Positions 18,995 through 56,104 of a DNA stretch of 56,104 nucleotides are shown here, piece after piece; within the stretch, counting starts at the first letter, position 1, and the number at the start of each line of letters is the position of its first letter. The translations under genes were made by a program, and so were the position numbers. Origin of the DNA: Cypionkella psychrotolerans (GTDB taxonomy: Bacteria > Pseudomonadota > Alphaproteobacteria > Rhodobacterales > Rhodobacteraceae); contig NZ_LGIC01000041.1 of assembly GCF_001294535.1 (NCBI RefSeq), forward strand, positions 1-56,104, in the 5' to 3' direction. A model generated the notes under the pieces. The model was given only the letters and a program-made list of their open reading frames with translations, was not told the origin of the DNA and searched no databases.

Positions 18995-19093
18995 GCCCTC
19001 TTTGTATCCCCTCCCGCACATCCGATCAAGGCAAAACCGCAGTTTCTGCGAACAGCTTTCTATTGCCCGCGGCCATACCAGAAACGATACAAA

Positions 19094-42866: not shown

Positions 42867-44695
42867 GCGCAGCTTTACCAAATGCCGGGGCCGCATTGGC
42901 CCCGGAAGTGTTGTCAGTGCAAGGGCTTACGGTATCGGTGCGCACGGGCAACGGGGACCGTGCTTTGGTTGAAAACCTGTCGTTCACGTTGCACCGGGGT
43001 GAAACCTTGGCGATTGCAGGCGAAAGCGGCTCTGGCAAGTCGATCACTTCGCTGGCAATCATGGGTCTGTTGCCGCCGCCTGCGGTGCGGATCACGGCGG
43101 GCAGCGTCCGTCTGGGCGACACCGATCTGACCAAGCTGCCCGAGGCGCAGATGCGATCGTTGCGCGGTGCCCGCATTGCGATGATCTTTCAGGAACCGAT
43201 GACCTCGCTGAACCCGGTACTGACGATTGGCGCGCAACTGACAGAGGCGATCCGGGCGCATAGCGATGCAACCCGCAGCGAAGCCCGCGCGCAAGCATTG
43301 GCCGCACTGCAAGCCGTGCGGCTGTCGCAGCCCGAACAACGGCTTAAGCAATATCCACACGAGTTGTCGGGCGGTATGCGTCAGCGTGTGATGATCGCGA
43401 TGGCGCTTGCCCTGCGCCCCGAAGTGCTGATCGCAGACGAGCCGACCACCGCCCTGGATGTGACGGTGCAGCGTGAGGTTTTGGATTTGTTGCGCGATTT
43501 GCAGCGCGAATTTGGCACGGCGATCATTCTGATCACGCATGATATGGGCGTGGTCGCTGAAATGGCAGACCGCGTGATCGTGATGAAAGCCGGGCAGGTG
43601 GTAGAGGCGGCAACGACCCGTGATATCTTTGTGGCACCGCAAATGCCCTATACTCAAAATTTGTTGGCGGCGGTGCCACGGATGGGCAATGGCTCGCGCG
43701 TTTCCAGCGATGTACCCCGCGACAGGTCCGGCGAAACCATTGCGCGACTTCGCGATGTGGTGGTGCGATTTCCGCTGAAAGGCGGCATTCTGGGCCGGAC
43801 CACAGCGCATGTGCATGCTGTCGAACATGTCAGCTTTGATATTCGCCGGGGCGAAACATTTGCACTGGTGGGGGAATCCGGTTGTGGAAAATCGACGATT
43901 GCCAAGGCGATAGTTGGCCTTGCCCCGCATCAGGGCCGGATTGAAATTGCAGGCCAAAGCTTTTCCGATCTGGATGCTGCTGGCCAAAAGGCGCTACGCC
44001 GCCGCGTGCAGATCGTGTTTCAAGACCCGATGGCAGCGCTAGATCCACGCATGACCGTGGGCGCTCTGATTGCCGAACCTTTGGTGATCCACCGCCTTGG
44101 CAGCGCAGCCGAGCAACGCGCCCGCGCATCGGAATTGATGCAGCGCGTCGGGCTGACCGATGATCAGCTTAATCGCTATCCGCACGAATTTTCGGGCGGG
44201 CAGCGCCAGCGCATCTGCATCGCACGTGCCTTGGCGTTGCAGCCCGATCTGATCATCGCTGACGAATCCGTGTCGGCCTTGGATGTCTCGGTGCAGGCGC
44301 GGGTGCTAGAGTTGTTGCAAACCTTGCAGCGCGAATATGGCGTGGCGTTCTTGTTCATCAGTCACGATATGGCAGTGGTTGAGAATATTTCGGACCGTGT
44401 GGCGGTGATGTATTTGGGCCAGATCGTGGAGACCGGCAGCCGCGCGCAGGTGTTCGGCAACCCGCAACATGCCTACACCCAGCGCTTGATCGAGGCGGTT
44501 CCGGTGCCAGACCCCAGCCACATCCGCGCGGCATCACCTCGGTTGGCAGGCGACGTACCCAGTCCGGTGCATACTTTGGGCCAAGGTCCAGCGCGGTTGG
44601 TGATGGTCGATGTTGGCGACGGCCATTTGGTAGCGCGGCTATACGACGGCGCTGAAAAACACTGTCTATCCTCCGCTAATTTCCGTCGAGAGTAA
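42863..44695 (+). CDS. Fused double ATPase of peptide-type ABC transporter (DppD-DppF)
   Basis: 610 residues with two complete ATPase domains in one chain. The first has Walker A GESGSGKS at 53-60, LSGGMRQRVMIAMAL and LIADEPTTALD. The second has GESGCGKS at about 335-342, FSGGQRQRICIARAL and IIADESVSALD. Such fused forms (like GsiA) power DppBC-type permeases. The usual Cys-rich C-terminal extension is replaced by a short tail. It overlaps the formamidase gene by four bases and closes the operon. Confidence 0.93.
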   Translation: MSAALPNAGAALAPEVLSVQGLTVSVRTGNGDRALVENLSFTLHRGETLAIAGESGSGKSITSLAIMGLLPPPAVRITAGSVRLGDTDLTKLPEAQMRSLRGARIAMIFQEPMTSLNPVLTIGAQLTEAIRAHSDATRSEARAQALAALQAVRLSQPEQRLKQYPHELSGGMRQRVMIAMALALRPEVLIADEPTTALDVTVQREVLDLLRDLQREFGTAIILITHDMGVVAEMADRVIVMKAGQVVEAATTRDIFVAPQMPYTQNLLAAVPRMGNGSRVSSDVPRDRSGETIARLRDVVVRFPLKGGILGRTTAHVHAVEHVSFDIRRGETFALVGESGCGKSTIAKAIVGLAPHQGRIEIAGQSFSDLDAAGQKALRRRVQIVFQDPMAALDPRMTVGALIAEPLVIHRLGSAAEQRARASELMQRVGLTDDQLNRYPHEFSGGQRQRICIARALALQPDLIIADESVSALDVSVQARVLELLQTLQREYGVAFLFISHDMAVVENISDRVAVMYLGQIVETGSRAQVFGNPQHAYTQRLIEAVPVPDPSHIRAASPRLAGDVPSPVHTLGQGPARLVMVDVGDGHLVARLYDGAEKHCLSSANFRRE

Positions 44696-44883
44696 CCCGA
44701 GTAGGAAGTGAACCCTCTGCAAATCTCCGACGAAGAGAAAATCGCATTATTCGATGACATTTAGGAAGGACTATGGTCCAGATAACGTCAATTTTTCGCA
44801 GACAAACACTCCTAGCGGCCGAGTTTGGCGCGGTCTTCCCGCAGGCCACTATCGCCTCTTACACAGGAAATAGAACGCATTGT

Positions 44884-45225
44884 TCAACGCGGCGTTCGGC
44901 ACGGGTATCGCGACCACGCGGTCAGCATTGAGCATATCAGGCATGGGGGCGACCATAGAGGACCAACTCGTCGCAATTTCCCCACCTCGAATGTATAGAT
45001 AGTCCCGGCACAATAGGCGACAATATTGATATAGGTCGTAAGAACCCCCTGCGCAGTCTGCCCAGATGTCCTGATCCAAGCCGAAGGTGGTCCGTTATTG
45101 TCGACAGAGTCGAGATCGAGTTCGCTGTTTCCAGTGCCACCCAGCGGAGGCCAGCGCTCCGCAAATGCGAATGACGGCTGGCAGGCAACTATCGCGGTAG
45201 CAAAAGCAATCGCCCGGCTGTTCAT
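44884..45225 (-). pseudogene. Small secreted protein, probably frameshifted
   Basis: From ATG 45225 a signal peptide ends FAFA, and the mature part reads ERWPPLGGTGNSELDLDSVD, SAWIRTSGQTAQGVLTTYIN, typical of small periplasmic proteins. After about codon 85 the frame becomes Arg/Cys/Pro-rich. A neighbouring frame instead gives MVAPMPDMLNADRVVAIPVP then NNAFYFLCKRR and stop at 44849, a much more natural end. A single frameshift near 44950-44990 is therefore likely. Function is unknown. Confidence 0.4.
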
Positions 45226-45345
45226 TCCAGCCACCCAGCAGGAAGGTGGTGCATCGGATGATCGAAAGACAAGCCGTCTCGCCGCTCGACGACATGCCCC
45301 TTATTGAAGGTTGATCTGGCCGTGGTCGAATAATTCCGAACAGCC

Positions 45346-45788
45346 TTGAAAAGAAAGAACATAGTAGCCCGCGCGGGGCGCGCGCGGTCCGGCCGGGGGA
45401 TTTGGCAAAGCCAAACGCCCCAGCCCTGATCTCAAATGCCGTCACCGGGGATCGACCGGGCAAAGCCCAGCTCACCCCAGCACCGACGGTTTATTCTGGT
45501 CTCATGATCCGCCTGACATCCCTGTCCGCGCCAGTCAATCGGCAAGCGCCGCGCGAAGCGCGTCGTCTCCAGCGGGGAGCCGTGTTGTCGCTTGCGCGCC
45601 TGCCCGCGCCACCTCTCCGCCTCCGACCGATGACAGTCGCCGCCAGCGCCGCAGGCAGGGCGTAGCCCTCCCTGCTCTGTCCTCCGGGAAATGTGCATTT
45701 CCCGAAAGACAGAACAGGAAGTGCCGCCCAAGGCGGATGAAGGGCAAAAGATCCCGACCCGCGCCACCACAAAGACGGAGCGCCCTAA
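45346..45788 (+). repeat. Structured intergenic element, copy A
   Basis: About 440 bp, roughly 85-90% identical by eye to copy B at 47316-47754. Core hairpin: GGGGATTTGGC-AAA-GCCAAACGCCCC (45397-45421). A second hairpin is CGGGC-AAA-GCCC (about 45456-45468). A long interrupted stem at 45671-45718 has CCTG, CTGTC and CGGGAAATG on the left and CATTTCCCG, GACAG and CAGG on the right, separated by small internal loops. CCGCC-CAA-GGCGG follows. It ends with GGAG upstream of the ATG at 45789, so it includes that gene's ribosome site. Confidence 0.75.
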
Positions 45789-46175
45789 ATGGCAAAGCAC
45801 TTTGAAACCCACCTCTACACCTTCGCAGTCGCACTGACCCAAGGTCACGCAATTCTGCCGGCCAATCTTGCCGGGATGCGGGCCAAAGCTTTGATGCATG
45901 GCCACACCGAGGCAGAGTGCAGCGGGATTGAGGCCAACCCGCAAGCCTATATCACCGATGGCCGGATTGTGCGGAGCAGCCGCGTTACCTTCCATCATTT
46001 CGACAATGATCAAGAGGCGCGGGACTATCGCCGCATCCACAGCACAGGTGGCTGGATTTTTGTATGTTCCGACAACGGTGAGGCGACGTTGTTTCCGCCG
46101 CATATGTCACCGAGCCATATCCGGCATCACCCCCTTGTCGCAGGCCAAATTGGCCGCCTTTTGGCAAGCGCGTGA
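45789..46175 (+). CDS. Plasmid protein of unknown function
   Basis: 128 residues from ATG 45789. It is a soluble protein with several His residues and a regular mixed alpha/beta pattern (FAVALTQGHAILPANLAGM, AYITDGRIVRSSRVTFHHFD, GGWIFVCSDNGEATLFPPHM). No signal or membrane segment. It is the first gene after element A and is followed 10 bp later by another small gene. Family not recognised. Confidence 0.65.
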   Translation: MAKHFETHLYTFAVALTQGHAILPANLAGMRAKALMHGHTEAECSGIEANPQAYITDGRIVRSSRVTFHHFDNDQEARDYRRIHSTGGWIFVCSDNGEATLFPPHMSPSHIRHHPLVAGQIGRLLASA

Positions 46176-46185
46176 GGTTGAAGCC

Positions 46186-46458
46186 ATGACCAGCTTTCCC
46201 TACGGCTTTCCGACGAAATACAGTCGGTATTTGTCCGGCACCGATCAGAAATGGCCGTCATGCACAAATTCCGAACCCGGCAGCATGGGGCATGAGTGCG
46301 GCGAACCCGCCCGCTACAGTGCCGAAACCGCATCAGGTTTTGCAGTTTGCTATTGCGCGGCTTGCAAAGCCACCGGAACCGAAGCCGCCCGTGCCGTCAA
46401 CTGGACAGCACTACCGCCCGCCCCACGCAGCGGCGATGGCGCACCTGCTAACCTTTGA
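46186..46458 (+). CDS. Small Cys-rich plasmid protein
   Basis: 90 residues from ATG 46186, with GAGG eight bases before. Cys residues at GHECGEP and CYCAACKATG, with one more in WPSCTNS, suggest a small zinc-binding module. Length and position between two unknown genes suggest an accessory of the same transcript. No family is recognised. Confidence 0.55.
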   Translation: MTSFPYGFPTKYSRYLSGTDQKWPSCTNSEPGSMGHECGEPARYSAETASGFAVCYCAACKATGTEAARAVNWTALPPAPRSGDGAPANL

Positions 46459-46480
46459 AGCCGCGCGGAGGGCTTGACCA

Positions 46481-47065
46481 ATGATCACCACCGCAAAAGC
46501 AACCGAAGTTTTGAATGCTGTGGTGCGCGATGAATATGCGCGCCTCGCCGTTCTTGCGGGCCGGGAGTGCAAAATACTGATGATCCGCACCGCGCGCAAA
46601 CATCGAGAGGCCACAGCGCCGTTTCCGCTCTATAATGCCCAGTCGGGCAGCGAAGATCATCTTGCCGAATTTGAGGCTTTCGCCCTTTGCCCCGTGCGTA
46701 CCGAACATGATTTTTACGGTGAACACATGGAAAAGACCACGATCTGCGGCGCTGAAATCTGGTCGATCTATGGCCGCTCAGGTTTGGAATGGAGGTTGAT
46801 CCACGATAGCACCGACGAACATTCTGCTGGCACGGCGTTAGTTCAGATCATCGCCATGACCGGCAAAAGTGTGTCGTTCCAAGCCTCGGATTATTGCACC
46901 GCCGAAACCAGCCTGCCCGCCTTGGCCGATATTCTGACAAGCAAGATCCACGATGAAATCCCCGGCTATGACGAGCCGGACGAGTTTAAAAGCGACGATT
47001 TTGACAATCACCCACTTGCCGCAATCCGCGAAGATTTGGTTGCGGCGCTAGATCGGGGCGTTTGA
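46481..47065 (+). CDS. Plasmid protein of unknown function
   Basis: 194 residues. A helical N-terminus (VLNAVVRDEYARLAVLAGRE) is followed by beta-rich central segments (TTICGAEIWSIYGRSGLEWR) and an acidic C-terminus (YDEPDEFKSDDFDN). No membrane segment or known motif is seen. It is the last of three co-directional genes after element A and is followed by a strong GC-rich cruciform. Confidence 0.6.
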   Translation: MITTAKATEVLNAVVRDEYARLAVLAGRECKILMIRTARKHREATAPFPLYNAQSGSEDHLAEFEAFALCPVRTEHDFYGEHMEKTTICGAEIWSIYGRSGLEWRLIHDSTDEHSAGTALVQIIAMTGKSVSFQASDYCTAETSLPALADILTSKIHDEIPGYDEPDEFKSDDFDNHPLAAIREDLVAALDRGV

Positions 47066-47118
47066 CGGAAAGCGTGGCGAGGCAACCGGCCCCTTCGCCA
47101 CGCCTCTCAGCAAAGGTT

Positions 47119-47159
47119 CGCCCCGCGGCCTCGGCCCGCGAGGCCGCAGCAGCGGGGCG
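47119..47159. repeat. GC-rich nested cruciform
   Basis: Outer stem CGCCCCGC/GCGGGGCG (47119-47126, 47152-47159) encloses a 9-bp stem GCGGCCTCG/CGAGGCCGC (47125-47133, 47139-47147); the two share a GC and cannot both form fully. No T-tract follows. It lies 53 bp after a stop codon. Confidence 0.6.
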
Positions 47160-47195
47160 CGGCGCTACCCGCGCCGGGGGCCGCAAAGCGGCTTA

Positions 47196-47307
47196 CCCCA
47201 GAGTTTACCACGAAGCATTTCACTTACCTTCGCAATGTGAATCAGCGCGTTCAGCTCTAAGCCCTCAGGCCCTTCAAGCAAAACCTTCAGGCTGAAAAAC
47301 TCTGGGG
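47196..47307. repeat. 11-bp inverted repeat closing a 112-nt segment
   Basis: CCCCAGAGTTT (47196-47206) and AAACTCTGGGG (47297-47307) are perfect complements 90 nt apart, just before element B. The enclosed sequence has no reading frame of note. The layout is that of a structured RNA domain or a protein-binding site pair. Confidence 0.5.
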
Positions 47308-47315
47308 CAGACAAG

Positions 47316-47754
47316 AAGGAACATCGCAGCCCACGCGAGGGCGCGCGGTCCGGCCGGGGGATTTGGCAGAGCCAAACGCCCCAGCCCTGATCTCAAAGGC
47401 CAGCGCTGGGGATCGACCGTGCAAAGCACGGCTCACCCCAACGCCGACGGTTTTTTTCTGCTCTCACGATCCGCCTGACATCCCTGCCCGCGCCGGTCAA
47501 TCGGCAAGCGCCGCGCAAAGCGCGTCGTCTCCAGTGGGGAGCCGTGTCCTCGCCCATGTGGGCTGCGGGCCGCACCACCTCCCCGCCTCCGACCGTTGAC
47601 AGTCGCGGCCAGGGCCGCAGGCAGGGCGTTGCCCTCCCTGCTCTGTCCTCCGGGAAATGTGCAGTTCCCGAAAGACAGAACAGGAAGTGCCGCCCAAGGC
47701 GGATGAAGGGCAACAGACCCCGAACCGCTTCATCACGAAGACGGAGTGTAAACT
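47316..47754 (+). repeat. Structured intergenic element, copy B
   Basis: Second long copy. Core hairpin GGGGATTTGGC-AGA-GCCAAACGCCCC is at about 47357-47382. The second hairpin reads CCGTGC-AAA-GCACGG where copy A has GGGC/GCCC, a compensatory change that keeps the stem. The long interrupted stem lies at 47637-47684 with one internal mismatch (CATTTCCCG in A, CAGTTCCCG here). It ends with GGAG nine bases before the ATG at 47755. Confidence 0.75.
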
Positions 47755-48228
47755 ATGCTTGATGACCAACCCCTTGCCTACATCTGCAAGGCTTGTGGCA
47801 AGCCGCAGGAGGCTTTGTGCCAACCGAGCATTTGCCCGGATTGCGGCGCAAAAGGTGGCGCGCGGGATTTCCCGAGCCAAGAAACCGTGACGATTGCCGA
47901 ACAGAATGATCGGTTCCGTGCGGTTTGGAACGCTGATTTCACAATCCCCGGTCGCATCCTTGGCACCCCCGGCGTTGCAGCTTTGGGTTTCGAATTTATG
48001 CAAAGCCTCATGGTTGCGGTGATGCAGTTTTCCGATTTCACCGCTGACAACGACCCATATGGTTGCCGCAATTTTGGAATTGTCACCATCCCCCACGAAG
48101 GCAAGCCAACCCGCGTTTACTGGAAGATCGACCTCTATGATCGGAACCTTGAATTTGGGTCCGAAGCCCCGAGCGATCTGACCAAAACCACCCGCGTAAT
48201 GACGCTCTTGCTGCCCTCTGAATACTGA
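47755..48228 (+). CDS. DUF3768 protein with N-terminal zinc ribbon
   Basis: 157 residues. Residues 11-35 carry CKAC...CPDC, a zinc-ribbon pattern. Residues about 45-157 match DUF3768: IAEQNDRFRAVW, FSDFTADNDPYGCRNFG, YWKIDLYDRNLEFGSEAPSD and the terminal LLPSEY. DUF3768 proteins are frequent on alphaproteobacterial plasmids and their function is unknown. The gene lies directly after element B and before the ParB-like gene. Confidence 0.8.
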   Translation: MLDDQPLAYICKACGKPQEALCQPSICPDCGAKGGARDFPSQETVTIAEQNDRFRAVWNADFTIPGRILGTPGVAALGFEFMQSLMVAVMQFSDFTADNDPYGCRNFGIVTIPHEGKPTRVYWKIDLYDRNLEFGSEAPSDLTKTTRVMTLLLPSEY

Positions 48229-48315
48229 CAACCACCCCGGCCCCCGCTGAAGGGGCCGCCCCCCACATATCGCCGTGAAACAGCGGCGTCCCATATCACC
48301 ACACTGGAGACGATT

Positions 48316-50172
48316 ATGAACATGATGAACACCACCGCCGCCGTTGCAGCAGATCCGATCGAATATTATCCGCTGGAAAGCCTCTATCTGTCGCCGCTGA
48401 ACCCGCGTCAGAGCCATTCCGACGACGAAATCCTTGAACTTGCTGGCAGCCTTATTGCCTGCGGAATGCTGCAAAACCTTTCAGGCTTGCGCGATGCAGA
48501 AGGCCGCGTTGGTATTGTGGCAGGCGGTCGGCGCTTCATGGCACTGCAACTGGCCGTGCAGACCCACGCGCTCTTGGGGATCGTGCCTGTCAAAGTGACC
48601 GACGATGAAGCCACGGCCCGCGAATGGGCTTTGGTCGAGAACACCGCCCGCAAAGACCTGCACCCTGCCGATGAAATCCGCGCCTATGGCCGGATGGAGG
48701 CCACCGGGGCCAGCATCACCGCCATCGCATCTGCCTTTGCTGTCACCGAGGCGCATGTTCGCCGCCGCTTGAAACTCGCGGCCCTTCCCGCCGCCGTGCT
48801 GGACGCCTTGAGGGCGGGCCAGATCACCTTGGGCCATGCCGCGATCTTCACGACCTGCAACGATGAAGACCTTGCGCTTGAGGTGCTGGAAACGGCGAAG
48901 GGCCGCGATATGGCCGAGCATGAACTCCGCCGCTTGCTGCAAGGAGCCTCAATCCGCCACACCGACCGCCGCGCACAATTCGTCGGGATCGAAGCTTATG
49001 AGACCGAGGGCGGGCGCATCACCCGCGACCTGTTTAGCAACGATGTGCTGTTTGACGATGCAGGGCTGTTAACCGACATTTTTGCGCGCAAGCTGGCAGA
49101 AGTGGCACGGGGCTTGATGGGCCAAGGCTGGAAATGGGCGGAGTCGCGTCTCGAGAATTATGTGGACTGGTCCGAGAAAGACAAACTCACCCGGCTTTAT
49201 CCGCAAGAGCCGGATTTGTCGGAGGATGAAGCCGAGGAATACGATGCCTTGTGCGAACTTGCCAACGCCGACGCGCTAGACGAAGAAGGCCACGCCAAGC
49301 TGGACGCCTTTGACGCGAAGCGCGCGCCAGTGTTCAGCCCGGAGCAACGCGGAGCGGCAGGTGGGTTTGCATTTGTCGGGCGCGATGGCGAGCTGCAATT
49401 TGAAATGGGCTTTGTTCGCCCAGAAGATCGCGCCGAGGCTGTTGAAGCGGGCGTGATTGCAGCCGACCGCCACAGCAGCGCGGGCGCTATTTCCGGTGAA
49501 GCCACTCCGAAATCCCCCTACTCTGCGGCTTTGGTAGCAGATATTCACGCCATGCGCCTTGCCGCTTTGCAGAAAGCTTTGCTGGCTAAGCCCGAACTGG
49601 TGTTGGATCTGATGGCTTTCGCGCTCTCATCGGCCAGCGGTGCCTATGCTGCAATCTTCGATATGCGCCTTGGCAACCCGACCAACACGCCGAGCGTTGA
49701 GGAGGGCTTTGCGGTGGATGCCCGCCTGACCGACCCGAAGCCGCACAATATGGTGCAGGATCAGGCGGAGGCGTTTGTCGGGTTTCAGGGTCAGGGCAAG
49801 AAGGCGCGGAATGCGGCAATCACCGAAGCTTTGGCGCGCGGTCTGAACTATGGTTTCAGCACCTGTTCCAGACAGTCAAACCTCTTTGATCACGTCGAGG
49901 AAGAGGCAGGCGCATCAATTCGCACCGTCTGGACCCCGACCGCCGCGAACTTCTTTGGCCGCGTGTCTGGTGGCTATCTGGACGCATTGCTTGCCGATCT
50001 TCTTTCTTCCGAGGCGAGCGACGCCCGTGTAAAAGCCTTTGCCAAGATGAAGAAATCCGAGAAGGCGGCGACGATGGAGCGGCTGTTCAGCGACAGCACT
50101 ACCCAAACGCTTTACGCCCTTACCCCGGAGCAGATCGCGCGCATCGGCCAATGGGTGCCGGATTGCCTCTAA
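48316..50172 (+). CDS. Large ParB/Spo0J-family protein
   Basis: 618 residues with GGAG before ATG 48316. The N-terminal ParB domain (about 15-120) includes PLNPRQSHSDDEILELAGSL, VAGGRRFMAL and ENTARKDLHPADEIRAYGRM. A helix-turn-helix follows (ASITAIASAFAVTEAHVRRR). The rest (200-618) is a long extension with acidic segments and no motif I recognise. It is about twice the size of segregation ParB and no ParA gene is adjacent. Similar large ParB-like proteins sit in conjugative leading regions (for example F-type YubM). A role during plasmid establishment is inference. Confidence 0.8.
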   Translation: MNMMNTTAAVAADPIEYYPLESLYLSPLNPRQSHSDDEILELAGSLIACGMLQNLSGLRDAEGRVGIVAGGRRFMALQLAVQTHALLGIVPVKVTDDEATAREWALVENTARKDLHPADEIRAYGRMEATGASITAIASAFAVTEAHVRRRLKLAALPAAVLDALRAGQITLGHAAIFTTCNDEDLALEVLETAKGRDMAEHELRRLLQGASIRHTDRRAQFVGIEAYETEGGRITRDLFSNDVLFDDAGLLTDIFARKLAEVARGLMGQGWKWAESRLENYVDWSEKDKLTRLYPQEPDLSEDEAEEYDALCELANADALDEEGHAKLDAFDAKRAPVFSPEQRGAAGGFAFVGRDGELQFEMGFVRPEDRAEAVEAGVIAADRHSSAGAISGEATPKSPYSAALVADIHAMRLAALQKALLAKPELVLDLMAFALSSASGAYAAIFDMRLGNPTNTPSVEEGFAVDARLTDPKPHNMVQDQAEAFVGFQGQGKKARNAAITEALARGLNYGFSTCSRQSNLFDHVEEEAGASIRTVWTPTAANFFGRVSGGYLDALLADLLSSEASDARVKAFAKMKKSEKAATMERLFSDSTTQTLYALTPEQIARIGQWVPDCL

Positions 50173-50230
50173 CGCAAAGCAGAGGGGTGGCGCTTGTCGC
50201 CCTTCACCCCCTGCCCCGAGGTGATATGCT

Positions 50231-50422
50231 ATGACACAATATCCCCCGGTCACTGCCGAACAGCTTGAGGCGCTTGCGCATTTAGCAAAGCAGAATGGCC
50301 GGAATTGGAAGGCCTGGCTTTCCGATCTCTGGACGCGCGCCGCCGATCCTACCATGCATGGCCTGCGCAACAGCCACGGCCCGAGTTGGCTCAGTCAATT
50401 CTCTTTGTCGCTCAAACTCTAA
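50231..50422 (+). CDS. Small plasmid protein, YubL-like candidate
   Basis: 63 residues from ATG 50231, preceded by GAGG. The sequence LTAEQLE-like helix, GRNWKAWLSDLWTRA and LRNSHGPSWLSQF resembles small proteins found after ParB-like genes on plasmids. Function is unknown. Co-direction and the 58-bp gap suggest one transcript with the ParB-like gene. Confidence 0.6.
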   Translation: MTQYPPVTAEQLEALAHLAKQNGRNWKAWLSDLWTRAADPTMHGLRNSHGPSWLSQFSLSLKL

Positions 50423-50506
50423 CCGGCCCCGTGTTTACTCCTCGTGGTGAGGTCAAACTGCCTTCCCTTTGGGGGCGGCTTCTTTCTTGTCGCGTCACCT
50501 ATCTGT

Positions 50507-50537
50507 TTACATATGTAATCTGTTCAGTTACAGTAAC
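50507..50537. promoter_or_regulatory. Two palindromes before higB (operator candidates)
   Basis: TTACATATGTAA (50507-50518) and GTTAC-A-GTAAC (50527-50537) are perfect palindromes with related half-sites, immediately upstream of the toxin start at 50540. This is the expected place for HigA autorepression. Confidence 0.6.
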
Positions 50538-50539
50538 CT

Positions 50540-50815
50540 ATGATAAAGACATTCGCCAACAAACAACTCAAAGCATTGTGGGAAACGGGAAGGTCAAAGA
50601 TCGACGCCCGCCTTCATCAGCGAATATTGCTGCGGCTGGATCGTCTTGATGCCGCAGAAACCGCCGAGGATATGAACCTGCCGGGATTTAACTTTCACGC
50701 CCTTAAGGGCTTCAACCCAACCCGCTTCACCGTTCACGTCAACGGTCCTTGGTGCATCACCTTCGAGTTTATTGATGAAGATGCCTATGTGATCGACTTT
50801 GAGCAATATCATTAA
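50540..50815 (+). CDS. higB: HigB-type toxin (RelE superfamily)
   Basis: 91 residues. IKTFANKQLKALWETG, a basic central helix pair (LHQRILLRLDRLDAAET), then LPGFNFHALKG and the C-terminal strand segment YVIDFEQYH match plasmid-maintenance HigB proteins. These cut mRNA on the ribosome. The toxin gene comes first, as usual for higBA. No ribosome site is visible before the ATG, which would keep toxin levels low. Confidence 0.88.
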   Translation: MIKTFANKQLKALWETGRSKIDARLHQRILLRLDRLDAAETAEDMNLPGFNFHALKGFNPTRFTVHVNGPWCITFEFIDEDAYVIDFEQYH

Positions 50816-50825
50816 GGAGACGAAT

Positions 50826-51125
50826 ATGACCCGCAATCCAGATCGTTGCCCCTCACACCCCGGAGCTTTGTTGCGTGAGGATATCATCCCGGCCACGAAA
50901 AAGCCGAAGGCCGAGATTGCCCGAATGTTGGGCATCTCGCGCCAGCATCTTTATGAAATCATGGCAGAGCGCAAGCCCGTCAGCCCCGACGTAGCGGTTC
51001 GACTTGCCAAGATGTTCGGCGGCGGCTCGCTGGCGTGGGTTCGGATGCAAGGGGCTTTCGACGCATGGCAGGCAGAGCGCGCTGTTGATGTGTCAGCTAT
51101 TCCCACGCTTCACGCAGCGGAATAG
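50826..51125 (+). CDS. higA: HigA-type antitoxin
   Basis: 99 residues from ATG 50826, with AAGGAG seven bases upstream; the frame from 50799 would overlap the toxin. HPGALLREDIIPATKKPKAE, then ARMLGISRQHLYEIMAERKP form the XRE-type helix-turn-helix of HigA. It neutralises HigB and represses the operon. A terminator follows at 51195. Confidence 0.9.
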   Translation: MTRNPDRCPSHPGALLREDIIPATKKPKAEIARMLGISRQHLYEIMAERKPVSPDVAVRLAKMFGGGSLAWVRMQGAFDAWQAERAVDVSAIPTLHAAE

Positions 51126-51194
51126 AGCCACCCAGAGCTAGAGTCCGATCCAGCATAGGGATCAGGCCAAACCCACGATTGGCGCCAGATAATG

Positions 51195-51217
51195 CCCCGC
51201 ACTGTGCGGGGTTTTTT
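51195..51217 (+). terminator. Rho-independent terminator after higBA
   Basis: CCCCGC-ACTGT-GCGGGG followed by six T residues, 70 bp after the higA stop. It is the clearest intrinsic terminator in the window. Confidence 0.85.
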
Positions 51218-51987
51218 CTTTCCCAAAGGCAGCCGAGCTGTTCAGGGTGTCCCGCCAGACTTGGGGCAAAAGGGCCCCAAATCAGGCACGACCGGCGCTG
51301 CCCGCGCCGGGGCCGCTTACACGGTTTTAAAGTTGCAAAGATATAAAGAATCCTCAATACATATGTTTTGATACAAACTTAGGCGCTGTATGAACCGTTC
51401 ACTCACCGCGCTATTTGAAGCGCTCTGGCCATGGCGGAAGTCCTGCGTGGTAACCGGCAGCTTTCCCCCAGCGCCTCTGTTTTGGGTCTGTCACTCTGCA
51501 ATTCAGGCTTCTTGGTCAGATCGAAATGTTCGGCTCTGTGACGCCCCGGATACTTTCGCAAATTCTCTTTATCGTAGGGTTTCCTCCGCACCGTCGCACA
51601 AGAACCAGATCGCCATAGCCCGACAATCTTTGATCCCCAATGGTCGCCTTCCGCAGGTCGTAGTTCCATTCCACCGGCCGCCTCGAACCTGCCCCGGTCC
51701 ATACGCAAGGTGCCGTGACAGCACAATTGACTATCTCGAATACCGTAGCATGAAGCCAATACGGACGATTTGGGACAAAGCTGTGGGCGCGCGCGAGGCG
51801 TTTCCTTTGCGTGTTTCAATAACGGAACCTGGCTCAGTCGGTTCTTCAGCGACCAGCGGCCAAGAGCCGCCTTCAAGCAGAAAAACGGCTTTCACGCGAG
51901 CGCGAACCTTCCGTTTTTCAGCTTGATCGCATCACCAACTGGCCCTGCCCGTTTTCATCGAAACACTCAAACAAAGGAAACTACCAA
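51218..51987. other. Gene-less stretch before ssb with GC hairpins
   Basis: About 770 bp. TTGGGGC/GCCCCAA pairs at about 51261-51280. CCGGCGC-TGCCC-GCGCCGG at 51292-51310 is followed by GGCCGCTTAC, and nearly the same motif occurs at 47159-47195 (GGCGCTACCCGCGCCGGGGG then CCGC and CTTAC). Frames at 51390-51926 (plus) and 51403-51876 (minus) overlap fully and match nothing. I cannot support a gene. The long leader before ssb resembles the other structured gaps of this region. Confidence 0.45.
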
Positions 51988-52326
51988 ATGCGCACCCACT
52001 TCGAGTTCAATGCAATCGCTCGCGTCGGCAAAATCACTGCAATCGGTTCGATCTTGAAAGTCAGCCTTGCCGCCGAGTACGGCAAGCGCAACGACCGCGG
52101 CGATTTCGAGTCCAACCCCTTCTGGAACACCGTCACGATCTTCAACGAAGCCACCATCAAGTGGGTCAAAGAAAATGTCGGCCCCGGGGATCTGGTTCAT
52201 GCGCGCGGCACCGCACGGGAAACCAGCTACGACAAGAACGGCGAAACCATCTACGGCGTCACTTTCGCTTGCGACCAGTTCGACCGTCTGGCCAAGAAGG
52301 CCGAACGCCAGGACGACCAGCAGTAA
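51988..52326 (+). CDS. ssb: Single-stranded DNA-binding protein, short plasmid form
   Basis: 112 residues forming one OB fold: FNAIARVGKITAIGSILKVS, NPFWNTVTIFNEATIKWVKE, LVHARGTARETSYDKNG and YGVTFACDQFDRLAKK. The acidic C-terminal tip of chromosomal SSB (DDDIPF) is absent; it ends RQDDQQ. Plasmid SSBs protect incoming single strands during conjugation. The ribosome site is AAAGGAAAC upstream. Confidence 0.88.
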   Translation: MRTHFEFNAIARVGKITAIGSILKVSLAAEYGKRNDRGDFESNPFWNTVTIFNEATIKWVKENVGPGDLVHARGTARETSYDKNGETIYGVTFACDQFDRLAKKAERQDDQQ

Positions 52327-52331
52327 GACAG

Positions 52332-52354
52332 AGGGGCGGCACAAAGCCGCCCCT
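52332..52354 (+). terminator. Stem-loop after ssb
   Basis: AGGGGCGGC-ACAAA-GCCGCCCCT is a perfect 9-bp stem six bases after the stop, with only a weak pyrimidine tail. It also separates ssb from the convergent nuclease gene. Confidence 0.7.
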
Positions 52355-52383
52355 ACTCCCTTCCCAACGATGCGCAAACCGTC

Positions 52384-52869
52384 TCACTTTGAGACTCTTT
52401 GCGCCTTCCGCCACTGCCAGGGCGCTTCAAACTGCGCGGCCCAAATGCCGAGGCCCGCGCGGCTTGCTTCGGCTTCCGCCGCGACATAATCGGTCGAGTA
52501 CGCCCGATATGCCATCGCCCAGCCATTGCGCACCAGCCAGTCGTTCACGTCGCCCTCCGCTGTCCGACAGACCGCAACGGACCTCTTATATCGGTCCGTT
52601 CCACGCACTGCGCAGCTCGTCGGCTTCTGTGCCAGATGCACCGCCAGCGCCTCAGCCGCATCGCCGCCGCAGCGCCACTTGGCACCCGTGGGCAAGGTGC
52701 AGGTCTGATGTGCTTCAATCGCATCAATGCCAAACAGCCTGATCCTCTCGCCGTGAATCTCTATCGTGTCCCCGTCTATAACCGAGGCACGGCCGACAAG
52801 TTCGGGCGCTTGCGCCAGTGCTGACCCCGAGGCCAGCACCAGTGCTACGATCATCGCTCCGGTCTTCAT
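52384..52869 (-). CDS. Secreted thermonuclease (SNase-like)
   Basis: 161 residues with a signal peptide (1-20, ending ALAQ). The staphylococcal nuclease core is present: VIDGDTIEIHGERIRLFGID (Asp32, Asp34, Arg44, Asp49), Glu52, then DRYKRSVAVC with the second catalytic Arg region. The canonical IDAPE is IDAIE here. Such enzymes degrade DNA/RNA with calcium in the periplasm or outside. The start overlaps vapC by four bases, so it is translated with the toxin-antitoxin pair. Confidence 0.9.
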   Translation of the reverse strand: MKTGAMIVALVLASGSALAQAPELVGRASVIDGDTIEIHGERIRLFGIDAIEAHQTCTLPTGAKWRCGGDAAEALAVHLAQKPTSCAVRGTDRYKRSVAVCRTAEGDVNDWLVRNGWAMAYRAYSTDYVAAEAEASRAGLGIWAAQFEAPWQWRKAQRVSK

Positions 52870-53297
52870 CCCAGATCTGTCGCGGCAAAATCATCACCCT
52901 TGTAGAGCAAGGGCGTGTGATAGCCTTTCGCACAGGCATAGGCGAAGCAGTCGCCCATGTTGAGCCGCGCCGGATGCCCGGTCAGCTTGCCATAGGCCAT
53001 CGACGCCATACGCGCGCCAGTCCCAATGCTTTCCGAAATCATAATGTCCTTGCCGCCTATCGCTTCAATCAGTTCTCGCACCCAATCTTCGGACAATTTC
53101 TTGTCCTCATCATTCAGAACCGTGCGGCCTGCGTCCCGCGCGCGTTGAGCCGCAAGCGACACCACAGCTTCAAAGCGCACGACGGGCGAAACCCAAACTT
53201 TTCCTTCAGCCTTCGCACGTTCTATTTGTCCCAGAAAGCCCAAGGCTTCAGGTTCACCCTTAATGATCGCCACTAATGCAGAAGCATCCACAAACAT
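52866..53297 (-). CDS. vapC: VapC-type PIN-domain toxin
   Basis: 143 residues. MFVDASALVAIIKGE gives Asp4 of the PIN site, VRFEAVVSL the conserved Glu, and LNMGDCFAYACAKGYHTPLL with GDDFAATD the C-terminal Asp residues. PIN toxins cut tRNA or rRNA with Mg. Its start overlaps the vapB stop by one base. Confidence 0.92.
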   Translation of the reverse strand: MFVDASALVAIIKGEPEALGFLGQIERAKAEGKVWVSPVVRFEAVVSLAAQRARDAGRTVLNDEDKKLSEDWVRELIEAIGGKDIMISESIGTGARMASMAYGKLTGHPARLNMGDCFAYACAKGYHTPLLYKGDDFAATDLG

Positions 53298-53539
53298 CAG
53301 ATACCCCCGCTCAGATCATCCATAAGTTCCTTATCGTCAAAGGGCCGTCCAGACAGTCCTTCGCTACGGGCGCGGGTTTGCAACAGCGCAACTTGTTCTG
53401 CCAGGCTCACAACTACTGCGGATTGTGTGTCGAGTAAATTTAGAGCCCGTCGCACGACATCCGTCTTGTTTAAGCCCAGTCTTTTCTCCAGTCTCAGCAT
53501 CAGCAGGTCAATCTTCTCGTCTCTCACAAACAGCGGCAT
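53297..53539 (-). CDS. vapB: VapB-type antitoxin
   Basis: 80 residues from ATG 53539; a longer frame to 53632 crosses the operator region. MPLFVRDEKIDLLMLRLEKR and LGLNKTDVVRRALNLL form a ribbon-helix-helix of the PSK/Rv0623-like antitoxin type. A flexible C-terminus binds the toxin. It probably represses the three-gene operon through the GTATATAC sites upstream. Confidence 0.88.
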   Translation of the reverse strand: MPLFVRDEKIDLLMLRLEKRLGLNKTDVVRRALNLLDTQSAVVVSLAEQVALLQTRARSEGLSGRPFDDKELMDDLSGGI

Positions 53540-53548
53540 TGCACACCC

Positions 53549-53579
53549 GTATATAAACCTCCGTATATACAGTATATAC
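53549..53579. promoter_or_regulatory. Operator of the vapBC-nuclease operon
   Basis: Three copies of an 8-bp self-complementary site: GTATATAA (53549-53556), GTATATAC (53563-53570) and GTATATAC (53572-53579). The last two form a perfect palindrome around one base. They lie 10-40 bp upstream of the vapB start. The AT-rich core could also contain the -10 element. Confidence 0.7.
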
Positions 53580-53632
53580 TCAATCAGCGCCGATTGTCTA
53601 TATTGATCCTTCCCTTCGTCCCGTATCCGCAA

Positions 53633-54083
53633 AGCAACAAGCTTTAGGGCGCGTCCTTCGGAGCTGGCTCAATGCCGCATGCGGCACCGAGCCAGCCAAA
53701 GGCTGTCTCGGCCCATTCGGGTTACGATCCTTCGCGCGGTCATGTTGAACTTGAGCCACATCATCAGGGGGATTTGGACAAGCCAAACGCCCCCGATCAG
53801 AGCGGCGTTGTGCAGGCTGAAACGTTGCAAAGTAAGATCGGGAACCGCCGGTTCCCCCGCGCAACCACAAACTCTGGCGACCGAAGGGGTGTCCCCGCCT
53901 TCCTCTGCCTTCGGCTTTGTGCAGGTGGGTGATCCCCCTCCCCTTCGATCTGGAGTTTGAAGTTGCGCAGGCCCCCCTCCAGCCCCTCGCCGGGGGGGCA
54001 GGTTTTCACATGAGAGGCGCGCAAGAGCGCCGCTCAAGTCAAAAACCCGCCCGAGTTTAGGGCAAAGCGATGGAGCGCCACAA
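53633..54083 (+). repeat. Structured intergenic element, copy C (short relative)
   Basis: A 450-bp leader before ardC. The core hairpin GGGGGATTTGG-ACAAG-CCAAACGCCCC lies at 53766-53794. GGGAACC-GCC-GGTTCCC follows at 53840-53856, preceded by GATC as in copy D. A further stem GCTGGCTC/GAGCCAGC is at about 53662-53694. The 3' end GGAGCGCCACAAATG nearly repeats the end of copy A (GGAGCGCCCTAAATG). Confidence 0.65.
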
Positions 54084-54971
54084 ATGGCCGACGACAAATT
54101 CAATGTATATTCCCACGTCACCGCAGCAATCGTTTCTGCGATGCAGTCGGGCACCGCACCGTGGCGCAAGCCTTGGACGGGCGGCACAGGCGGCGTCAGC
54201 ATTCCCCTGCGATCCAACGGCGAAGCCTACCGCGGGATCAATGTTTTGATGTTGTGGATTGAGGCCAGCGAAAAAGGCTATGTTTCCCCCCAATGGTTTA
54301 CCTACAAACAGGCCCAGGAATTGGGTGGCCAAGTCCGCAAGGGCGAGAAATCCGCCACCATTGTGAAATACGGCACCGTCGAGCGCGAAGACCGCGAGAG
54401 CGGTGAAGAAAAGCGCTTTGCCTATGCCAGGGCTTACCGGGTGTTCAATGCCGATCAGATCGACGGCTTGCCCGCAGAGTTTTACGGCAAACCGCCTGAA
54501 GCCCCCTGCGACCTGGGCACCGAGGGAGACGCCGCGCTTGATGCGTTTTTTGCGGCAACAGGTGCGACGATCACCAGCACCGATACCCCGCGCGCCTACT
54601 ACAACAGCAAGGACGATTTCATTCATATGCCGCCCATCGCAACCTTCCACAGCGCCAGCGGATATTATGCCACCCTTGCCCATGAAGTCACCCATTGGAC
54701 AGGACACGCAAGCCGCCTTGACCGTTTCAACAAACCCGACCGCCGCGCCTATGCCTTTGAGGAATTGGTGGCAGAAATCGGCAACTGTATGCTTTGCGTA
54801 ACCCTTGGCCCTGCCCCCGATTTTGACCAATCAGCATCCTATCTGGCAGGATGGCTGGAAGCCTTGCAGAACGACGAGCGGCTGATTTTCAAGGCCGCAT
54901 CCGATGCACAGAAAGCGGTGGACTACATCACCGCCGTCGCGGGCCAAACAAAAAAGAAGGTGGCCGCGTAA
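54084..54971 (+). CDS. ardC: ArdC-type anti-restriction protein
   Basis: 295 residues. The N-terminal ssDNA-binding domain of ArdC (about 5-130) shows APWRKPWTGG, YRGINVLMLW, FTYKQAQELGGQVRKGEKS and FAYARAYRVFNADQIDGLP. The C-terminal zincin-like peptidase has HEVTHWTGH at 200-208 and EELVAEIGNCML with the third ligand. ArdC protects incoming plasmid DNA against restriction in the recipient. It sits after element C with ssb and the ParB-like gene nearby. Confidence 0.93.
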   Translation: MADDKFNVYSHVTAAIVSAMQSGTAPWRKPWTGGTGGVSIPLRSNGEAYRGINVLMLWIEASEKGYVSPQWFTYKQAQELGGQVRKGEKSATIVKYGTVEREDRESGEEKRFAYARAYRVFNADQIDGLPAEFYGKPPEAPCDLGTEGDAALDAFFAATGATITSTDTPRAYYNSKDDFIHMPPIATFHSASGYYATLAHEVTHWTGHASRLDRFNKPDRRAYAFEELVAEIGNCMLCVTLGPAPDFDQSASYLAGWLEALQNDERLIFKAASDAQKAVDYITAVAGQTKKKVAA

Positions 54972-55003
54972 GCGGCCCCCAAAATTTGGCAACTGCTATT
55001 CCC

Positions 55004-55291
55004 ATGCAGCTTGAAATCAGAAAAGCCCCGATCGGGCATAAATCAGGCTGGGTCATTTGGGATTCCGCCGCAGACTGCGCAGAGGTTAGCTGGCTTTGGA
55101 AAACCAAGAAAGCCGCTCTCGCAGAAGCACAGGAGATTCTTGAGAGACATCGGGAATCGGAGCGTCGGGAGATCGAATATCGCGCAAAACTTACAGCAGA
55201 ACGTGCGCAAAAAGATGCTCTGCAGGCCGCAAAAATCGCGCGCCGCGAAGCCATCAAGCTGGAGAAACTTCGCCAGCTTGACCTCTTTTGA
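55004..55291 (+). CDS. Small coiled-coil plasmid protein
   Basis: 95 residues from ATG 55004. The N-terminal half is compact (IGHKSGWVIWDSAADCAEVS). Residues 35-95 form a charged coiled coil (LAEAQEILERHRESERREIE) and end LRQLDLF. It follows ardC by 32 bp and is likely co-transcribed. Function is unknown. The earlier in-frame initiator at 54851 lies inside ardC and is rejected. Confidence 0.6.
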   Translation: MQLEIRKAPIGHKSGWVIWDSAADCAEVSWLWKTKKAALAEAQEILERHRESERREIEYRAKLTAERAQKDALQAAKIARREAIKLEKLRQLDLF

Positions 55292-55315
55292 GGCGGGGCT
55301 GATCGGCCAAATGGT

Positions 55316-55359
55316 GTCGGCTATACGCGGACACATAAATGCGCCCGCGTATAGCCGAC
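55316..55359. repeat. Perfect 15-bp inverted repeat
   Basis: GTCGGCTATACGCGG (55316-55330) and its exact reverse complement (55345-55359) enclose 14 nt, 24 bp after the coiled-coil gene. A short T run occurs further on (TGGCGCTTTT). It could be a terminator of unusual form or a recognition site; the size recalls the repeat at 6916-6961, but the sequences are unrelated. Confidence 0.7.
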
Positions 55360-55384
55360 TGGCGCTTTTGCAGCGCCCGCAGCC

Positions 55385-55439
55385 GGGGGATTTGCGCAAA
55401 TCCAGACGCCCCAGCACAGATCGGGAACCGCCGGTTCCC
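55385..55439 (+). repeat. Structured intergenic element, copy D (core only)
   Basis: Core GGGGGATTTGC-GCAAATCCAGACGCCCC (55385-55412), where the stem is kept by paired changes against copies A-C, is followed by GGGAACC-GCC-GGTTCCC (55423-55439) as in copy C. The next sequence is the IS21 end, so the gene once controlled by this copy probably lies beyond the insertion. Confidence 0.65.
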
Positions 55440-55539
55440 GTTGCAAGACCTCGAACACCTGATGCGTCCTGGTGCCAAGTGGCACTCTGCAATCCCTGTC
55501 ACGTGCAAGAAAGCTGTCGGGAATGCCCTGTCTAACTGA

Positions 55540-56104
55540 TCACAATTTATCTGAGAACGGCAGTGCAAAAGTTTGCCACGGAAGTGGCGGGATAGTCTTG
55601 CTGCGGGCAGAGTAAAACTTTGCCACTTTGGCTCTTTCTGGTGACGGGGAGGGCGGGGGATTTTCAGCGTGGAACTTTATAGAAAGGTGCGCCTTGCGCG
55701 CCGCGAAGGCCTGAGCGAACGCGCCGCCGCTCTTCATTTTGGTGTTTCGCGTGCAAGCGTGAAGAAGATGATGAGTTTTTCGGTTCCGCCAGGGTATCAG
55801 CGGACAACGGCGATAAAGCGGCCCAGGCTGGATGCATTCACGGGCTTCATCGACCAGTGGTTGCAGGAGGACCTTAGTCGGAACCGCAAGCAACGGCATA
55901 CGGCCAAGCGTATTTTTGAGCGGCTGCGTGACGAGCACGGGTTCAAGGGCGGCTACACGACGGTGAAGAATTATGTCCGCGAACATGGCCGACGCAGCCG
56001 AGAGATGTTTGTGCCGCTGGCTCATGCCCCGGGCCACGCCCAAGCGGATTTTGGCGAGGCGATGGTTGTGATCGGCGGTGTTGAGCAAAAGGCGTATTTC
56101 TTCG
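55540..56104 (+). mobile_element. IS21-family element, left end (continues beyond window)
   Basis: Two related 15-bp direct repeats, GCAAAAGTTTGCCAC (55565-55579) and GTAAAACTTTGCCAC (55612-55626), precede istA. Repeated terminal motifs of this kind are characteristic of IS21 ends, where IstA binds. The exact outer boundary could not be fixed; it lies near 55530-55565. Confidence 0.7.
55669..56104 (+). CDS. istA: IS21-family transposase IstA, 3' partial
   Basis: The reading starts at GTG 55669 and is open to the window end (145 codons of a usual 500). The N-terminal helix-turn-helix LARREGLSERAAALHFGVSR, then SVKKMMSF, QWLQEDLSRNRKQRHTAKRI, then LRDEHGFKGGYTTVKNYV and the start of the catalytic domain HAQADFGEA (first Asp of DDE) are IstA hallmarks. 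The helper ATPase gene istB should follow outside the window. Confidence 0.92.
   Translation, partial: MELYRKVRLARREGLSERAAALHFGVSRASVKKMMSFSVPPGYQRTTAIKRPRLDAFTGFIDQWLQEDLSRNRKQRHTAKRIFERLRDEHGFKGGYTTVKNYVREHGRRSREMFVPLAHAPGHAQADFGEAMVVIGGVEQKAYFF

Follow-up and report, generated by a model that had tools for sequence, protein, structure and literature searches.

Why should one non-coding block of about 440 bp stand in front of two unrelated genes? The question is posed by a 56,104-nucleotide stretch of Cypionkella psychrotolerans DNA (contig NZ_LGIC01000041.1, positions 1 to 56,104; the whole stretch is called the window below), in which an earlier note made from the sequence alone had picked out two copies of such a block, A and B, judged 85-90% identical by eye. 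We suggest that A and B are probably single-stranded DNA (ssDNA) promoter-like elements of conjugative or mobilizable DNA, of the Frpo/ssi type by function and not by detectable homology. The duplication itself is real. A direct-repeat search returned three ungapped blocks of 188, 116 and 102 nt with 90-91% identity and a spacing of 1961-1966 nt, and a BLAST search of the organism's own genome with copy A matched copy B at 47310-47746 (88% identity, E 2.4e-156), with an additional short match at 55382-55422. The alignment of A with B contains gaps of 1, 3 and 4 nt; identity climbs at about 45346 and 47316 and lasts until the ribosome-binding region of the gene that follows, whose ATG adjoins the copy in both cases. 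The measured identity of 88-90% and the position of both ends thus agree with what the note had described, and the two following genes (a 128-aa protein without a Pfam family and a DUF3768 protein) are indeed unrelated.

A and B belong to a family of non-coding elements on alphaproteobacterial, almost only Rhodobacterales, plasmids (class I hereafter, as distinct from a second, class-II element in the same window). BLAST against PLSDB located 105 places in 75 plasmid records at E<=1e-5, and among the best 60 of these 105 places none had an annotated feature under the match, in a gene table that is incomplete. The 75 records cover 20 genera, all of them Rhodobacterales (a placement that we partly presume) except Jiella of the Aurantimonadaceae. 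Iterated nhmmer searches over the fetched loci defined a family core of about 340 nt, and a 68-position model of its main hairpin, R1, was built on the template strand of the downstream gene. R1 was found in 40 of 394 Rhodobacteraceae genomes, own genome included, and in 1 of 385 genomes of the class Alphaproteobacteria, the own genome only. Plasmids may carry multiple copies, before different operons. Some copies sit on contigs of 0.4 to 4.3 Mb, so that the term plasmid element, used from the start, is right for the 75 records and too narrow for these; in L082, the one copy on a chromosome-size contig whose neighbours were scanned, the genes downstream of the element are ardC, one for a helix-turn-helix protein that weakly matches MobC, one for a PF03432 relaxase and one for a type IV coupling protein (T4CP), and the copy probably belongs to an integrated mobile element. 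In two plasmids the 3' (hairpin) half is tandemly duplicated before a single gene (L008 13903-14389 and L042 15157-15689).

No coding frame is conserved through the copies; a conserved frame is what the note had named as fatal to its proposal. Open frames on the + (gene-sense) strand are present in 16 of 18 diverged cores, but they occupy each of the three phases and encode unrelated peptides, and of the dinucleotide shuffles made from any one element 25-96% likewise hold one; a protein-coding reading was rejected on these grounds. In window positions 43000-56104 no Rfam family reached its gathering score (best 31.6 bits against a cut-off of 100). Eight of the ten weak Rfam matches (E 0.03-0.7) fall on the element hairpins, which we attribute to the near-perfect stem.

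The position of the element relative to genes is regular. After removal of duplicate fetches, 108 places correspond to 76 distinct elements, some matching the 3' half only. Behind 72 of the 76 come a Shine-Dalgarno (SD) motif and a start codon that opens a frame of 50 codons or more, and in 68 a gap of 6-16 nt separates the core from the start codon. BLAST clustering of the downstream proteins, with 107 of the 108 places covered, gave 20 clusters: 64 ArdC-like, 11 DUF3768 and 4 DUF932 (counts of places, not of distinct copies), the remainder being small clusters and ten singles, some of them apparently misread frames. Pfam assigns ArdC, DUF3768, DUF932, DUF3560, DUF4942, DUF1419 and ParB-like families among them, so the module does occur before unrelated genes. 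A covariance-model search with a count of downstream genes had been proposed as a check: ArdC, DUF3768 and ParB-like genes follow copies as anticipated, while no SSB was identified among the downstream clusters. Within the window, the 194-aa protein further downstream of A is 36% identical over 132 positions to the protein directly after an element copy in p1PARARS4 (L040), which again places the element before different operons. A mobile or REP-like (repetitive extragenic palindromic) repeat, spreading for its own sake and lying between genes by chance, would also give several copies per plasmid, but it does not account for the single orientation to the next gene or for the narrow spacing before the start codon, and across 0.63 Mb of loci, the F plasmid control included, R1 finds nothing at E<=0.1 beyond these hairpins and their complements; we give that explanation hardly any credence. 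In two different plasmids ardC is itself apparently split, with three tandem tyrosine-recombinase genes between its halves (L041 20330-24314 and L045 6614-10978), which suggests a shared insertion target.

Which molecule, then, is under structural selection? When copy A is folded as ssDNA, the template strand has a z score of -5.27 and the gene-sense strand one of -1.80. Non-redundant sets of 34, 27 and 18 copies were drawn at identity cut-offs of 95%, 90% and 88%, and the template strand was the more structured in 34 of 34 copies (mean z -5.5 versus -2.9), against 18 of 30 control windows from the same loci (mean z -0.65 and -0.63). About 25 pairs make up the stem of the main hairpin, which is closed by a short cap, often CATG. 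In an alignment of 50 distinct hairpins, which was fitted to R1 and so leans toward the structure, both partners vary in 11 of 12 consensus pairs, the share of paired cells is 94.6% compared with 73.6% after shuffling, and the covariation score is 0.672 (0.262 shuffled; at most 0.185 when slid). The wobbles distinguish the strands: with both kinds scored alike in 27 non-redundant hairpins, the template strand holds 68 G.T and 7 A.C mismatches (binomial p ~1e-13, for sequences that are not fully independent), G.T exceeding A.C in 24 hairpins, the reverse holding in 2, with one tie. Such an excess argues against a duplex cruciform, which would be strand-neutral, and against a gene-sense RNA, for which the opposite bias is expected. 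Likewise R1 scores 47-82 bits on the template strand and 22-43 bits on the complement where the complement reaches E 0.1. Full-length alignments were not used to tell the strands apart, since they gave similar results on both: a first RNAalifold run on 34 MAFFT-aligned elements with DNA parameters returned small helices only on either strand, and a second on 18 elements found double changes in 58 of 113 pairs on the strand assigned below as transferred (the T-strand) and 57 of 105 on the + strand.

These results bear directly on a leader RNA of the riboswitch or attenuator type made from the + strand. The element does occupy the 5' region of genes, and its + strand too folds better than shuffles; the + strand is nevertheless the weaker in every one of the 34 copies, scores lower with R1 and would call for a wobble bias in the other direction. 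A conserved fold on the template strand means that the mRNA is not the molecule selected for structure, and we rejected the leader RNA on these strand tests, leaving it a very slight chance. Of the note's proposal, the regulatory module stands (non-coding, under selection, before unrelated genes and probably of a promoter type), and the leader-RNA family does not.

The folded strand also appears to be the one that is transferred, an assignment that comes from relatives' loci and not from the window's own plasmid. In all four MOBQ plasmids, which are 17-29 kb long, the classic nick motif TAAGTGCG|CCCT, presumably cut at the bar, lies on the minus strand upstream of mobQ, which makes the folded strand the T-strand in 4/4. 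A nick-like motif near mobC lies on the minus strand in all nine counted class-I MOBP loci, as the classic YATCCTGY in L007 and L041 and as a widened form, YATTTCYYGYC, in the other seven. The template strand is thereby the T-strand in 13/13 counted class-I loci (six by a classic and seven by the widened motif); two class-II MOBP loci that were new to the pattern, L109 and L111, agree (2/2). Any of the three nick motifs occurs in these loci at a background of 0.13 per kb and strand. Left out of the count were L079, L081 and L083, for which there was a TCCTG scan only, and L006, L040, L042 and L046, which had no usable mobC interval; for L037, L038 and L039 the interval scanned ran beyond the point at which mobC is annotated to start. 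Measured from the nick-like motif of the counted MOBP loci, the elements lie about 1.7-17 kb away on the leading side, with one truncated fragment at 22 kb, and the genes after them point to the origin of transfer (oriT). Long arrays of degenerate direct repeats of about 10-11 nt were seen by eye between a ParA/VirC1-like gene and mobC in L007, L008, L039 and L043, on the leading side of the presumed nick and with a sequence that differs between plasmids.

The identity of the strands helps to weigh two further explanations. An antisense or regulatory RNA transcribed from the opposite strand, overlapping the 5' untranslated region (UTR) and selected for its fold as RNA, would leave identical covariation and an identical wobble preference. 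It does not predict that the folded strand should be the T-strand, as it is in the four MOBQ and nine MOBP loci, and no Rfam family is reached at gathering score; we regard it as highly improbable. A single-strand initiation site, by contrast, predicts the same strand and the same fold: here the T-strand hairpin would be a primer site for the second strand, used by primase or RNA polymerase, and its place upstream of genes would be secondary. Frpo is said, in the title of a 1997 paper by Masai and Arai, to serve primer RNA synthesis as well. A priming site leaves unexplained, however, why 68 of 76 copies keep their distance from the start codon with an SD motif at the element's end, and why several copies per plasmid precede different operons, and we consider it unlikely.

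An ssDNA promoter-like function is suggested by this anatomy and by comparison with the F plasmid. In F, a repeat aligns over 548 nt at 90% identity, one copy stopping 21 nt short of ssb and the other 20 nt short of the gene at 19033. As with A and B, a duplicated, structured, non-coding block, about 90% identical between copies, thus stands just before unrelated leading-region genes. Given the position that we take F oriT to have, these genes point to oriT and the T-strand is their template, as in the counted MOBP loci. The window and F also share a large ParB-like protein (29% identity over 621 aligned positions, E 3e-41), and SSB (in the window only SSB-like), ParB-like and DUF932 genes recur in the F leading region and the family's loci. 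By position the F repeats are Frpo2 (before ssb) and Frpo1, and deletion of either abolishes early expression of the tested genes behind it, according to the available part of PMC9849209.

The resemblance does not extend to sequence. Homology to Frpo was rejected on the ground that the family profile has no match in F 45000-69000 at E<=10, and whereas Frpo/ssi stems carry canonical -35/-10 boxes, the + strand of this family does not: the best match in 18 diverged elements is 6-8 of 12 positions, with shuffled means of 6.6-7.5, in a scan of the + strand and not of the folded duplex. A conventional sigma-70 promoter was rejected for this reason. A further difference from Frpo is the gap of 6-16 nt that separates core and start codon in most copies. 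The comparison with F therefore lends support to an element that works like Frpo, and none to its being an Frpo. The ssi elements of ColIb-P9 (IncI1), treated here as background, are Frpo-like ssDNA promoters of the leading region and homologous to Frpo (PMC9849209, in its available part). Samuel et al. 2024 describe candidates, Frpo' and Frpo*, that lie upstream of leading-region and anti-defence genes with a predicted ssDNA fold and that were detected either through BLAST with five known sequences or through -35/-10/UP boxes (available text of PMC11541004); a further catalogue used BLAST with five known and 13 putative sequences (available text of PMC12826799). The words Alphaproteobacteria and Rhodobacter are absent from the main text of both papers. 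Our family differs from Frpo' and Frpo* in having no + strand boxes, a distinction drawn from those partial descriptions, so that overlap with some candidates is possible. A search of one literature collection returned nothing on Frpo-type ssDNA promoters in Alphaproteobacteria, on Rhodobacteraceae plasmid leading regions in conjugation, or on plasmid DUF3768.

Taken together, the duplication, conservation, covariation, strand preference, nick-motif assignment of the T-strand, fusion to the start codon and F-like layout argue for the ssDNA promoter-like element proposed at the outset, and folding of the T-strand and its identity are supported as far as sequence can tell. In the mechanism that this anatomy and the precedent of F point to, the strand sent to the recipient would be the template strand of the downstream gene. 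On entry it would fold into the structured core of about 340 nt, in which the main hairpin, about 25 pairs long, often has its cap near CATG. The stem would mimic double-stranded DNA, so that the recipient's RNA polymerase could begin close to the foot of the stem and proceed through a short 5' UTR in the direction of oriT. ArdC, DUF3768, ParB-like and similar proteins could thus be made before the second strand exists, as putative defence-evading products whose expression would be shut off once that strand is synthesised. Early expression on entry would serve ArdC, which is required in the recipient and not in the donor (PMC7213743, in its available part).

Several observations weigh against this assignment. 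The covariation is what an antisense RNA would yield as well, and the diverged copies L087 and L090 have more A.C than G.T and no fitting gene. The + strand boxes do not rise above the shuffled level, and the nhmmer profile has no match in F 45000-69000 at E<=10. The Frpo regions of F show no strand asymmetry (z -5.7/-4.9 and -5.3/-5.6), in contrast to its strength in this family, so that the known kind is not marked by such asymmetry. For MOBP, seven of the nine nick assignments depend on a motif widened after inspection and are not blind: it was widened after L008, L037, L038, L039 and L043, and L080 and L082 were recognised by eye, a plain TCCTG scan giving + strand matches only in L080 and none in L082. 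L037 has in addition a + strand motif match about 455 nt further off, and L038 has CATATCCTGA on the + strand about 110 nt before mobC, outside the pattern. The four MOBQ plasmids have the element behind the relaxase gene, where its entry comes late (in L004 about 14 kb after the nick), so that a strict leading-region role fails there even though the strand is right. Finally, no relaxase was found among the window proteins scanned, and PF03432, MobF and MobQ relaxase queries had no match in the own genome. An L038-type relaxase query found partial regions only, on contigs C26 and C59; no overlap of the C26 ends with the window was seen, and the T4CP genes of the genome lie on three other contigs (C59, C72 and C12) whose linkage to the window is not established.

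The class-II element of the window resembles class I in being structured, in occurring on similar plasmids and in lying upstream of ArdC, DUF3768 and other genes (L109, L110 and L111 among the loci), but it is unrelated in sequence and its strand bias is weaker: it folds strongly on both strands, the template strand being lower in 9 of 12. Its 86 places are distributed over 36 plasmid records, Sphingobium, Agrobacterium and Caulobacter being among the genera; one Thioclava plasmid has five copies and two Paracoccus plasmids have three each, all in one orientation there, and L038 holds a short inverted fragment. A and B both carry the first module of class II upstream of their class-I core. It is conceivable, though we hold it with some doubt, that alphaproteobacterial conjugative elements evolved ssDNA promoters of their own, in at least two unrelated classes at the same gene positions. 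What is recognised would then be not -35/-10 boxes but the shape of the hairpin and a conserved stem arm (CAGAG..GG..AGGGC, on the non-template arm), perhaps with the help of a different sigma factor or of a plasmid-borne factor.

Such promoters have been demonstrated for F-type plasmids and catalogued by likeness to known sequences or by sigma-70 boxes (PMC9849209, PMC11541004 and PMC12826799, each in its available part). A family with covariation and a strand assignment from nick sites would extend the principle to another bacterial class, and raises the question of what the polymerase needs where -35/-10 boxes are absent. We note that an R1-type search model finds operons rich in unknown proteins (DUF3768, DUF932, DUF3560, DUF4942, DUF1419), whose products are candidates for anti-defence functions.

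Table 1. Features of the window that bear on the duplicated element (window coordinates).
Feature	Position	Strand	Evidence or remark
Copy A of the element, gene-sense strand	45346..45788	+	direct repeats, alignment, BLAST; ends at ATG 45789
GGGGATTTGG..CCAAACGCCCC module upstream of the class-I core of A	45396..45421	+	common to the class-II element
Family core in copy A, about 340 nt	45440..45774	+	nhmmer
Main hairpin of A on the template strand	45661..45728	-	covered by model R1, 70.7 bits
128-aa protein, first gene after A	45789..46175	+	no Pfam family
194-aa protein, further gene after A	46481..47065	+	
Copy B of the element	47316..47754 (start about 47310)	+	ends at ATG 47755
GGGGATTTGG..CCAAACGCCCC module upstream of the core of B	47357..47382	+	
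Family core in copy B	47399..47740	+	
Main hairpin of B on the template strand	47627..47694	-	70.5 bits
DUF3768 protein, after B	47755..48228	+	Pfam 6.1e-28
ParB-like protein, 618 aa	48316..50172	+	homologue of the ParB-like protein that follows ssb in the leading region of F
SSB-like protein	51988..52326	+	21.2 bits, below the Pfam cut-off of 26
Class-II structured intergenic element	53767..54063	+	upstream of ardC
ArdC-type antirestriction protein	54084..54971	+	ArdcN and zincin metallopeptidase domains
Inverted repeat (55316-55359), then shared GGGGATTTG module at 55386	55316..55412	not assigned	possible remnant of an element

Two smaller features accompany the SSB-like gene of the window: an inverted repeat with 16-nt arms at 51873-51926, about 60 nt before the gene, and a resemblance of the region upstream of the gene to that before ssb in L043. 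Among the plasmid records, six (L007, L008, L038, L041, L043 and L111) are labelled non-mobilizable in PLSDB, yet have annotated relaxase genes, and type IV secretion system genes are also present in the fetched stretch of most of them. One further record, PP438431.1 (L112), is entered as 'Synechococcus phage Ssp-JY41'; with a MobA/MobL relaxase, a T4CP and a RepA-like initiator, and with the element and an ArdC gene, it has the appearance of a MOBQ plasmid of Rhodobacterales and not of a phage.

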